DNA of 48,702 nt from Gammaproteobacteria bacterium. GTDB lineage: Bacteria; Pseudomonadota; Gammaproteobacteria; Pseudomonadales; Azotimanducaceae. The stretch's first letter is position 1. Each line of letters begins with the position of its first letter. A program made the position numbers and the translations under genes. The stretch is from assembly GCA_026707945.1 (NCBI GenBank), contig JAPOVV010000024.1, positions 1 to 48,702 on the forward strand, read 5' to 3'. The notes beneath the pieces were generated by a model. It ran no database searches. It was given only the letters and a program-made list of their open reading frames with translations, and was not told where the DNA came from. Of this stretch, positions 41,613 to 45,008 are shown piece after piece.

Positions 41613-44600
41613 GTGGGCTATGACATTGCCGTTGTTGGCGCAGGACCGATCGGAAGTTTGTGCGCGATCGCCCATGCGCAACGCGGTGCTCGTGTCGCGT
41701 TATTCGAAGGCAATCCCAAAGCGTCGACTCGCTTAGCAGGCGAGTGGTTGCATCCTCCCGCCGTGCGGATGTTGCAGGATGCAGGTGTAACGCTCGAGCC
41801 CTGTGATCACAGTAGTGTGGGTAAAGGGTTTGTCGTCTCGCCGGAGGATAAATCCGAGCCGATTGTGCTGCCGTATTCCGAAGAGTCGATTGGCTTGACG
41901 TACGAGCACGCCGAGCTGGTTGCAGCGATGCACAAAGCGATCGCGGAACTTGACGACATCGATTTCTTTCATCCTGCAAAAGTTCGCAACGTGGAAGACG
42001 GTCGAATTGCATTCAGCCACCGCGGGTCGACGGATGAAGTTGAAGCTCAACGAATCGTCGGCGCTGATGGGCGTGCGTCGATTGTTCGGAAATCGCTGGG
42101 TCTCTCACCGGAGCGGATCGTATGTTCACGAATGATCGGGGTTTTGGCAGAAGGTGTGAACGTCCCGTTCACAGATTACGGTCACGTGCTTCTGGGTGGA
42201 CCTGGACCGATCCTGATGTTTCAGCTGGGTGAGGGTCGCGTTAGGATCATCGTCGACGTGCCTTTGGACCTCTGGACCCCTAGCGATCGTATTGGCGTCT
42301 TGACCGACTCTTACGGTGATTTGCTTCCAACCGATATTCGAGGAGCATTCGTCGCTGCGCTGCGTGACGGTCAGTACCAAGCAGCGGGTAACGAAATTCG
42401 ACCTCGCTTCACCTATGGAAACTCGAAACGAGTGCTCATCGGCGATGCCGCGGGCAACTACCACCCATTAACTGCCGTAGGTATGACACTCGGATTTGGT
42501 GACGCGTTTGAGCTAGCGTCTGGTGAGAGTTTTCGCGGATACGAGACGCGTCGTCTTGAAGCGACACGTGCCCCCGAGCTTTTGGCAATGGGGTTGTACG
42601 AAGTATTCGTCGACCATCGCACGGAAGCGGCTGCCGTGCGGCAGGAGGTATATCGGATATGGCGTGAGAGTCGTTCCAAGCGTGATCGCACTATGGAGTT
42701 GCTAGCGTGCGAGGACACTTCAGTATTTCACCTCGGATTCACATTCTTTGGCATCGTCGCGCGCGCAATCCTTAAGTCGCTCCCAAGCTCTTTAAATGTC
42801 AATGCGTGGCGTCAGATGAGACACCTCGTCACGGTATTAGTGGATCGGATTAGCCGCTTTCTTCGTGGTTCGCACGCTTTGCGGAAATCGAAACTAACGT
42901 CCGAGCAGCGACGGGTGCAAGCGCAAGAACAGCTTACCCGTGCGCTGTTAACGTCGATGGGATCCATCGAAGATACGACTCGCTCAACTGCTTCTAGTAG
43001 CAAAGAGACATCGGTCCATGTAGACGGTTCGATTCACGCTGCACTACACCGACTGATAGACCTGCAAGCTGGCGATGGCAGCTGGGAAGGAGAAATGGTC
43101 TGGTGTCCAATGCTAAGCGCCCAATACGTGCTATTGCACTGCGTTCTCGGCGAGCCAATCAGTGCCGAACGACGTCGGCTGCTGCTGCGTCAATTCGCAC
43201 ACTCGCGAGATAGGGAAGGCATATGGGGATTGCACGATCATTCACAACCGTACCTCTTCGTCACGACGTTAGTTTATGTCGCCTCACGGATTTTGGGGCT
43301 ATCGTGTGACGATGAACTGATCGCTAACGCTGGTGAATTTATCAGGAAGGAAGGGATAGTGTCGATTCCCAGCTGGGGGAAATTCTGGCTGGCGATTTTG
43401 AATCTATATGAATGGCGAGGACTAAACGCCGTACTTCCCGAACTTTGGCGGATTCCGAAGTGGTTACCCATACACCCTTCAAATTGGTACTGCCATACGA
43501 GGCTCATCTACATGGCGATGGCCGTTGTCTTTGCGAGCAAGTACCAAGTACCGAAGTCGCAAGTGATTGAAGAACTACGCGATGAACTGTACCCGCATGG
43601 ATTCGAGAACACGAATTTCAGACGTTCCCGGAATCAGTTACGCGAAGGTGACTTGTTTACGCCTCCGACTCGTCTACTTCGCATAGGCTATCGACTTACA
43701 CGTTTGTATGAACAGATTCACGTAAAAAAAATTCGTCGCAACTGTGTTGCGGACATACAAGATCGGATTCGATGGGAACTAACGAGCTCAAGCCATACAA
43801 GCATTTCGCCGGTTAGTGGGTTTCTAAACATTCTCGCCTTGTGGCTCTACGACCACGACGATCGAGACTCAAGACATGCATTGAGTAAGTTGGAAGACTG
43901 GATTTGGGAGGACGAAGAATGTGGCACGCGCGTGACCGGCGCACGAAGCGCTTCGTGGGATACAGGATTTAGTTTGCAAGCGCTCTCCTCAGTACAGAGT
44001 TTCGATGGTGCGGCGGAATCGATGAAGCGCGGTGCGGACTTCTTGAGAACTCAGCAGATACGCGAGAGTCTTACCGGGATCGACGACGCATATCGAAATG
44101 ACCCCAAAGGGGGATGGTGCTTTGCGGGCGTCTGGCACGGATGGCCTGTGTCCGACTGTACCGCCGAAGCAACACTCGGATTACTTTCGACGCATCCGCG
44201 TGCATGTGATTCAGGCACAATCAGTGAAGCGATCGAGTTTATGTTGCGATGTCAAAATCAAGATGGCGGGTTTGGCAGCTACGAATCGAAGCGATCGAAA
44301 GTTGATTTGGAATGGATGAATCCGGCGGAGATGTTCGGTGAATCGATGACTGAAAAATCGTACGTCGAATGTACGGCATCATGCCTGGCTGCGATTGCTG
44401 CGGTCGCTTCGCACGATCCCAAGCTAGTGAGTCGCGAAGCGAAAAACGCGATGGGCAGAGGTCATATTTGGTTACGTCGGGAACAACAAGATGACGGATC
44501 TTGGCGAGGCGTTTGGGGTGTGCAGTTTATTTATGGAACGATGTTCGGAATTCGCGGTTTGCTCGCGACGGGCGCCCATGAGAGTGATCCGGCTGTTCGA

Positions 44601-45008
44601 ACCGCAGCTAATTGGTTATTGGATCGACAACATTCAGACGGCGGGTGGGGAGAACACCACTCTGGTTGTTACGAAGGTCGCTTTGTTGATCATCATGAGA
44701 GTCAGGTCATTCACACGGCGTGGGCACTAATCGCACTCCTAGAATCGAATGACTCAAACTGGGCCGCGATTTCGCGCGGCATCGAATATCTCTTATGTGC
44801 GCAAGGTGCGGATGGTGCGTGGCCCAGACAGGATATGGCCGGAGTTTTCTTTAGGACGGCGCTATTGGATTACGTTCTGTATCGGCAGTATTTCCCGCTT
44901 CACGCGCTCGGGCTCTACGAGCAACGTCGTCGTCATCGTGAACGACTAACCGACGGTAATTCCACGGGATTTGAATCTGATATAGAGAGAGTTGAAACCA
45001 CTATCTAG
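41613..45008 (+). CDS. Fused squalene monooxygenase - oxidosqualene cyclase
   Basis: One 1131-residue reading frame joins two consecutive sterol enzymes. Residues 1-420 are a squalene epoxidase: FAD motif VVGAGPIGS, LAGEWLHPPAVRML, VGADGRAS and LIGDAAGNYHPLTAVGMTLG, ending in a hydrophobic/basic helix region. Residues 440-470 form a Ser/Thr-rich linker. From about 472 to 1110 runs an oxidosqualene cyclase: IPSWGKFWLAILNLYEWRGL, WYCHTR (His628), SWDTGF, the catalytic VSDCTAE (Asp848, Cys849), YVEC (Cys920), AGVF (Phe1079) and several QW repeats. VSDCTAE excludes squalene-hopene cyclase, which has DxDD. It would turn squalene into 2,3-oxidosqualene and then a lanosterol-type sterol. GTG at 41613 lies 11 bases after cyp51. 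Confidence 0.92.
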   Translation: MGYDIAVVGAGPIGSLCAIAHAQRGARVALFEGNPKASTRLAGEWLHPPAVRMLQDAGVTLEPCDHSSVGKGFVVSPEDKSEPIVLPYSEESIGLTYEHAELVAAMHKAIAELDDIDFFHPAKVRNVEDGRIAFSHRGSTDEVEAQRIVGADGRASIVRKSLGLSPERIVCSRMIGVLAEGVNVPFTDYGHVLLGGPGPILMFQLGEGRVRIIVDVPLDLWTPSDRIGVLTDSYGDLLPTDIRGAFVAALRDGQYQAAGNEIRPRFTYGNSKRVLIGDAAGNYHPLTAVGMTLGFGDAFELASGESFRGYETRRLEATRAPELLAMGLYEVFVDHRTEAAAVRQEVYRIWRESRSKRDRTMELLACEDTSVFHLGFTFFGIVARAILKSLPSSLNVNAWRQMRHLVTVLVDRISRFLRGSHALRKSKLTSEQRRVQAQEQLTRALLTSMGSIEDTTRSTASSSKETSVHVDGSIHAALHRLIDLQAGDGSWEGEMVWCPMLSAQYVLLHCVLGEPISAERRRLLLRQFAHSRDREGIWGLHDHSQPYLFVTTLVYVASRILGLSCDDELIANAGEFIRKEGIVSIPSWGKFWLAILNLYEWRGLNAVLPELWRIPKWLPIHPSNWYCHTRLIYMAMAVVFASKYQVPKSQVIEELRDELYPHGFENTNFRRSRNQLREGDLFTPPTRLLRIGYRLTRLYEQIHVKKIRRNCVADIQDRIRWELTSSSHTSISPVSGFLNILALWLYDHDDRDSRHALSKLEDWIWEDEECGTRVTGARSASWDTGFSLQALSSVQSFDGAAESMKRGADFLRTQQIRESLTGIDDAYRNDPKGGWCFAGVWHGWPVSDCTAEATLGLLSTHPRACDSGTISEAIEFMLRCQNQDGGFGSYESKRSKVDLEWMNPAEMFGESMTEKSYVECTASCLAAIAAVASHDPKLVSREAKNAMGRGHIWLRREQQDDGSWRGVWGVQFIYGTMFGIRGLLATGAHESDPAVRTAANWLLDRQHSDGGWGEHHSGCYEGRFVDHHESQVIHTAWALIALLESNDSNWAAISRGIEYLLCAQGADGAWPRQDMAGVFFRTALLDYVLYRQYFPLHALGLYEQRRRHRERLTDGNSTGFESDIERVETTI

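Follow-up and report, generated by a model that had tools for sequence, protein, structure and literature searches.

A squalene monooxygenase–oxidosqualene cyclase fusion in the sterol operon of a gammaproteobacterium, and its spread among bacteria

The fusion gene and its two halves

We analysed a 48,702-nucleotide stretch of DNA (hereafter, the window) from a Gammaproteobacteria bacterium (GenBank assembly GCA_026707945.1, contig JAPOVV010000024.1), in which one gene joins squalene monooxygenase (SMO) to oxidosqualene cyclase (OSC). The gene at positions 41613-45008 of the forward strand is a single open frame that runs for 1131 codons from a GTG start to a TAG end, with zero internal stops in the open reading frame (ORF) list; its GTG at 41613 sits 11 bases past the stop of the preceding P450 gene. 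A preliminary description of this DNA had reported an uninterrupted 1131-codon frame joining the two enzymes, which the ORF list and Pfam confirmed: the locus is a real SMO/OSC fusion, correctly annotated. Its parts are as follows.

41613..45008, + strand: SMO-OSC fusion, 1131 amino acids, about 127 kDa (ORF list, Pfam, relatives)
41619..42782, + strand: SMO catalytic part, residues 3-390 (Pfam SE and FAD_binding_3, conserved residues, Foldseek)
42798..42944, + strand: predicted SMO C-terminal helices, residues 396-444 (AlphaFold2 helices 396-422 and 430-444)
42945..43031, + strand: flexible linker, about residues 445-473 (near-constant length; predicted local distance difference test, pLDDT, <50 at 453-464)
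43032..44927, + strand: OSC part, residues 474-1105 (Pfam, 1w6k alignment, Foldseek, conserved residues)

The N-terminal half matched FAD_binding_3 (residues 4-303) and, as a member of the SMO family, Pfam SE (PF08491; residues 148-390, 78.5 bits versus a cut-off of 20.1); the C-terminal half matched SQHop_cyclase_N (474-768) and SQHop_cyclase_C (779-1103). The top NCBIfam matches of the fusion were cyclase families, and TIGR01787, at 491.9 bits versus a cut-off of 322.7, placed it in the squalene/oxidosqualene cyclase family. A Protein Data Bank (PDB) search aligned the C-terminal half with human lanosterol synthase (1w6k; E 5.9e-126) and the N-terminal half with human squalene monooxygenase (E 1.2e-23), while Foldseek gave template modelling (TM) scores by target of 0.84 for the OSC half against human lanosterol synthase and 0.81 for the SMO half against human SQLE (6c6n). 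The AlphaFold2 model of the fusion (50-row alignment) reached a pLDDT of 82 and a predicted TM score (pTM) of 0.86; helices extend to residue 444, confidence is low at 453-464, and the first helix of the cyclase starts at 471.

Relatives were collected by scanning named genomes with an alignment of OSCs, which confirmed 201; counts of scan loci below refer to 80 of these 201. Alignment statistics refer to 76 fusions and, like the OSC and SMO trees, omit L055, L061, L113, L115 and L121 (cut, or a motif missing); the OSC tree further omits L081, L085 and L111, which the pattern missed and which are in the SMO tree. Structure alignment A4 holds 50 of the 76 fusions, alignment A1 holds 9 of 12 fusions from a search of the window's genus, and alignment A5 holds the window's copy plus 19 of 21 loci (L060 and L110 omitted). 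The scan and the genus search overlap (L047=G016, L049=G007, L054=G072, L058=G003, L064=G012, L079=G015) and are not independent sets.

All 17 residues checked were identical in 76/76 aligned fusions. The invariant residues of the SMO half, aligned to 6c6n, include G9/G11/G14, D152-G153, D278 and H284-P285, of which we take the first three sets to be the GxGxxG, DG and GD motifs for flavin adenine dinucleotide (FAD). Those of the OSC half include H628, A777, H842, V846, D848, C849 and C920; in the alignment to 1w6k, D848, C849, C920 and H628 correspond to human Asp 455, Cys 456, Cys 533 and His 232, and they presumably hold the roles of the catalytic Asp 455 with Cys 456, Cys 533 and His 232. 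The motifs said earlier to be kept in both halves, namely the FAD-site residues, VSDCTAE (with D848) and YVEC (with C920), were thus found in place.

We then estimated the ratio of nonsynonymous to synonymous substitution (dN/dS) for nine pairs. Between the window and L047, dN/dS was 0.090 for SMO, 0.090 for OSC and 0.235 for the SMO tail plus linker, values that are rough at a dS of 1.5-1.9, near saturation. The other eight pairs ranged from 0 to 0.24 for SMO and from 0.07 to 0.21 for OSC, the SMO zero being the pair L114/L120, whose SMO halves are nearly identical and too alike to rate; across both halves, dN/dS was 0.05-0.24 in 8/9 pairs. Both halves are under purifying selection. The tail plus linker evolved faster than both halves in 7/9 pairs (exceptions: L053/L067, intermediate at 0.108, and L114/L120, at 0), and pairwise distances computed from one half correlate with those from the other (r 0.82).

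The stretch aligned to residues 445-476 measures 31 residues in 62/76 fusions (range 27-34). Over all 76, Ser, Thr and Pro make up 33% of the stretch aligned to 446-474 (Ser and Thr alone, 18.5%), compared with 16% and 14% of the two halves themselves. This composition, together with the low pLDDT at 453-464, supports the Ser/Thr-rich linker of the preliminary description.

The sterol operon and its published counterparts

The fusion closes a same-strand run of genes for an SdmB-like dehydrogenase, an SdmA-like Rieske oxygenase, an ERG24-type reductase and a CYP51-like P450; just downstream, on the opposite strand, lie an unannotated membrane protein and then squalene synthase.

36890..38008, + strand: SdmB-like sterol C-4 demethylation dehydrogenase, in the msbA position (NF052578; Pfam Epimerase, 3Beta_HSD)
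38019..39125, + strand: SdmA-like Rieske oxygenase, 4beta-methylsterol monooxygenase (NF052579; Pfam Rieske)
39122..40198, + strand: C-14 sterol reductase, ERG4/ERG24 family (Pfam PF01222, 7.1e-70)
40210..41601, + strand: CYP51-like P450 (Pfam p450, 2.2e-56)
45060..45728, - strand: 222-amino-acid membrane protein, candidate EBP-type sterol isomerase (Pfam EBP, Foldseek, recurrence)
45791..46843, - strand: squalene synthase (Pfam SQS_PSY, 2e-44; TIGR01559, 3.5e-31, under its cut-off)

The top NCBIfam matches of the two demethylation genes, NF052578 for the SdmB-like gene (2.6e-87, 293.6 bits) and NF052579 for the SdmA-like gene (2.4e-120, 401.7 bits), both fall under cut-offs of 600. The SdmA-like frame is listed from 37947, with ATG 38019 as the chosen start. 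The start of the P450 is uncertain (the frame is listed from TTG 40144, with further in-frame GTG 40210 and ATG 40261), and its CYP51 name is based on operon position and on PMC9531527 and PMC7074536.

The membrane protein at 45060-45728 has no Pfam or NCBIfam match above cut-off. Below cut-off, it matched the whole Pfam EBP domain at E 0.0032, a match seen in 5/20 members of its family, one other member of which matches DUF1673 better (E 0.0011). Its top Foldseek match was human EBP (prob 1.00, TM 0.53, E 0.028), with none reaching E 0.001, and a PDB profile search returned a single weak unrelated match (E 0.65). The family is present in 21/80 scan loci and 14/18 genomes of the window's genus, and the window's genome has three copies. 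We regard the protein as a candidate that resembles EBP, the Delta8-Delta7 sterol isomerase. Elsewhere in the window, a 740-amino-acid single frame at 23946-26168 (+) joins Pyr_redox_2 to AIRS and AIRS_C domains, a build that we take to be that of a SelD-type selenide water dikinase fusion.

The preliminary description had named no described fusion of this kind, a claim refuted by Mohanty et al. (2020, PMC7074536), who mention an SMO-OSC fusion in a sponge symbiont; this was the only description our literature search found, other wordings being possible and subscription papers lying mostly outside the search. Our finding therefore adds a member to a fusion already in print in 2020 and documents a wider spread of the fused form. 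That fusion, MsbE, belongs to the msb cluster (MT026193) of a gammaproteobacterial symbiont of the sponge Melophlus sarasinorum (PMC7074536). Like MsbE, the gene at 41613-45008 encodes SMO and then OSC in one polypeptide, and its neighbours are likewise a dehydrogenase, a Rieske oxygenase, a sterol reductase and CYP51; likened through the text of PMC7074536 rather than by sequence, msbA (oxidoreductase), msbB (Rieske), msbC (sterol reductase), msbD (C30-demethylase) and msbE all have counterparts in the window's run. The two clusters differ in that msb includes a sterol methyltransferase (msbF), with squalene synthase encoded on another scaffold (PMC7074536), whereas the window has squalene synthase and the EBP-like frame following the fusion.

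Four further papers are drawn on here for particular sections and passages. Kelly et al. (2022, PMC9531527) describe, in such passages, clusters of steroid genes (CSGs) of Ircinia symbionts, found in 115/537 sponge metagenome-assembled genomes (MAGs) of ten phyla. Like the window, the CSGs have a core of TM7SF2/ERG24-CYP51-LSS; their usual flanks are a reductase and a hypothetical gene 5' and, 3' on the other strand, a sterol methyltransferase or squalene synthase. The third core gene is called lanosterol synthase, with the epoxidase half unmentioned in the section and passages drawn on; its codon alignment of 3765 positions (omega 0.17) would fit a fused gene. In the passages used, Wei et al. 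(2016, PMC4919349) give separate locus tags for SMO and OSC in myxobacteria, Methylococcales and others, so that the same two reactions use two polypeptides there versus one in the window. Brown et al. (2023, PMC10070321) describe OSCs that occur alongside sterol methyltransferases in clusters or MAGs, including four from demosponge metagenomes; a fusion is not mentioned in the section and passages used. Lanosterol production in E. coli with separate enzymes is described in the part used of PMC12146001.

Spread and origin of the fused form

We looked for the same fusion in relatives, and SMO and OSC matches shared one stop-to-stop frame in 78/80 scan loci. The two exceptions are L061, which ends at a contig edge just before OSC, and L055, which changes frame; among the 79 judgeable scan loci (80 minus the cut L061), none shows a stop at the junction that would separate two genes. 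Chance joining is rejected by the shared frame in 78 scan loci. The order SdmB, SdmA, ERG24, CYP51, SMO, OSC on one strand is kept in 57/80 scan loci, 31 of which have no other gene of the query set nearby.

Within the window's genus, 11/18 genomes carry the fusion. The gene is divided over two contigs in G009 and G017 and shifts frame within the cyclase tail in G005; the junction itself is in a single frame in all three. No OSC match was found in the other 7/18 genus genomes (G001, G002, G004, G008, G011, G013 and G014), of which G001, G004 and G013 are <90% complete. One genome from another genus of the family (G072) also carries the fusion.

By record titles, the fused loci in the tree extend over Pseudomonadota, Nitrospirota, Actinomycetota, Chloroflexota, Bacteroidota, Rhodothermota, Acidobacteriota and Binatota, and this spread over eight phyla is new here; a sponge is named in few titles (e.g. 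L060, L067). In the phylum of the Nitrospira locus L069, 6/245 sampled genomes matched at E 1e-80, all in open frames of 1143-1216 amino acids, long enough for the fusion, with the SMO half checked in G884. In that of the Acidimicrobiaceae locus L077, the starting genome alone matched among 246 searched. In the window's own phylum, 46/398 genomes matched at E 1e-30, with >36% identity in the window's genome only; the remaining matches are taken to be squalene-hopene cyclases. In its class, 6/369 genomes matched at E 1e-70: the window's genome, the fused G559 and G703, G697 with a stand-alone OSC, and G663 and G771 with separate genes. G697 (L152, L153) has a sterol operon whose SMO frame leaves the contig end inside the linker, and a stand-alone OSC on another contig; a quick OSC tree with long branches and an uncertain root groups the fused G559 with this cyclase.

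The nearest separate-gene relative among the loci compared is on a Planktothrix plasmid, where the OSC shares 52% identity and the SMO, about 1.8 kb distant, runs the opposite way. This plasmid (Planktothrix agardhii p2, L140) carries a triterpene or sterol cluster with SMO, OSC, squalene/phytoene synthase, dehydrogenases and three cytochrome P450 genes. On a Streptomyces plasmid the order is OSC, squalene synthase, SMO, and in G663 and G771 it is OSC then SMO. Thus, of the four separate-gene loci (L135, L136, L139, L140), three have OSC ahead of SMO and one has divergently oriented genes, a difference in gene order that is also new here; an SMO directly upstream of a separate OSC on the same strand was found in 0/4. 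These orders do not support an origin from a known gene pair by mere loss of a stop, and the fusion therefore probably arose via rearrangement.

Searches for a mobile carrier gave 55 pattern matches on viral contigs, none confirmed, and tblastn matches to 45 plasmid records; the single record with query coverage of at least 80% has separate genes. By eye, the OSC and SMO trees largely agree in their groups (both are quick trees with weak deep branches). For the CSGs, core-gene trees inconsistent with the genome tree were taken as horizontal transfer in the passages used of Kelly et al. (PMC9531527). The fused operon may likewise pass between bacteria that are only distantly related; PMC7074536 and PMC9531527 identify many of these as sponge symbionts.

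The window's genome holds, on contig C114, a second OSC with an open frame, 53% identical.

L137 11286-13244 (genome G000, contig C114, about 269285-271243): stand-alone second OSC with an in-frame SMO-tail/linker remnant upstream

Directly upstream of this cyclase, in the same frame and ended by TAA, a peptide matches the SMO-tail/linker profile of the fusion family (i-Evalue 4.6e-4 when seven loci were searched in six frames; 23.0 bits versus a best of 11.3 among 20,000 shuffles of itself). No such remnant was found upstream of the OSCs of L133 (G697), L140 (Planktothrix) or L135. Judged by this peptide, the C114 OSC is apparently a fusion copy stripped of its SMO half; alternatively, the cyclase lineage could have possessed the leading stretch prior to fusion. 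Also new is the occurrence, within the same genome, of a stand-alone OSC retaining a vestige of the SMO tail present in the fusion.

A probable single protein acting by proximity

We consider it likely that the gene makes a single two-activity protein acting by proximity. The N-terminal flavin monooxygenase would epoxidise squalene, and the C-terminal cyclase would convert 2,3-oxidosqualene to lanosterol, to be demethylated by CYP51, the ERG24-type reductase, SdmA and SdmB of the same operon. The flexible linker of near-constant length, behind the SMO C-terminal helices, would keep two membrane-surface enzymes adjacent at a 1:1 ratio, and the greasy intermediate would travel a short distance through the membrane with no sealed tunnel. 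The preliminary interpretation stands as regards the single frame, the purifying selection and the relatives that keep the fusion, and falls where it claimed a fusion undescribed.

Several observations weigh against this proposal. We found no activity data for any fusion member. TIGR03463 (2,3-oxidosqualene cyclase), the top NCBIfam match of the fusion at 701.3 bits, lies under its cut-off of 851, which delimits one curated subfamily rather than activity, and the SMO half resembles human SQLE only modestly in sequence (86.8 bits over residues 4-297). The relative placement of the two domains is judged from pTM only. Host phyla are taken from record titles, nearly all belonging to MAGs, and single assignments may be wrong. 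An in-frame ATG, GTG or TTG occurs somewhere within residues 440-482 in 74/76 fusions; in L055 (6464-9929) the halves lie in two overlapping frames with the shift inside the linker; and the window's genome keeps the stand-alone cyclase on C114.

The last three observations bear on whether one gene yields two separate enzymes, through internal initiation near Met449 or linker cleavage, which we judge quite improbable. Such a reading would suit a linker predicted to be flexible and faster-evolving, the C114 OSC, which begins just beyond the point equivalent to Met449, and the residue aligned to Met449 itself (M 57, I 10, V 7, L 2 in the 76 fusions), whose codon is ATG in 57/76 and ATG, GTG or TTG in 60/76. 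However, 16/76 have none of these codons there, so that a second start at Met449 is not a shared feature, and only 13/76 have an in-frame start within 440-482 with a 4-base ribosome-site-like core ahead. Given the 74/76 with some in-frame start, internal initiation may nevertheless occur in single genomes. Separate starts would not need an unbroken frame, yet the frame is kept in 78/80 loci, and L055, the only judged scan locus with a frame change at the junction, may reflect a real change or a sequence error. The earlier argument against two products, that no ribosome site precedes Met449, is weak because the gene's own GTG at 41613 also lacks a clear one by eye; the start codon missing at Met449 in 16/76 is the better argument. 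An assembly artefact or degraded gene, for which one could cite the metagenomic origin of nearly all records and the frame changes in G005 and L055, is refuted by the fused relatives (78/80 scan loci) and by the dN/dS of both halves in 8/9 pairs, and has next to no probability.

How the intermediate might travel is a separate matter. Sealed channelling, with oxidosqualene handed over inside the protein between the SMO active site and the OSC channel, would fit the conserved fusion and linker length and a pTM of 0.86 suggestive of a settled domain arrangement, but the linker is of low confidence in the model, and the apparently fusion-derived OSC of the same genome would starve. Because that cyclase has an open frame and presumably uses free oxidosqualene, it speaks against an obligatory sealed tunnel, and we regard such channelling as improbable. 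As to the product, V846 aligns with human V453 in 1w6k, a residue that predicts lanosterol for the OSC half. Another triterpenol (parkeol, cycloartenol or other), an outcome compatible with a proximity-acting fusion, seems unlikely though worth keeping in mind: of the three product-guiding positions V453 alone fits lanosterol synthase, A777 (381) and H842 (449) being misfits and H449 the residue given for cycloartenol synthases. Against this, V453 alone tracked lanosterol in the bacteria tested, according to the passages used of Wei et al. (2016, PMC4919349), and CYP51 and C-4 demethylation genes lie upstream in the operon.

To our knowledge, the first two enzymes of sterol synthesis are separate proteins in other known systems, as they are in the four separate-gene loci compared. 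The natural fusion offers a ready test of whether joining SMO and OSC raises flux or hides the intermediate. Since the gene is labelled lanosterol synthase in the survey of PMC9531527, in the passages used, the epoxidase step may seem absent from symbiont genomes though present. The fused operon bears on which partner makes sponge sterols, and hence on sterane biomarkers.

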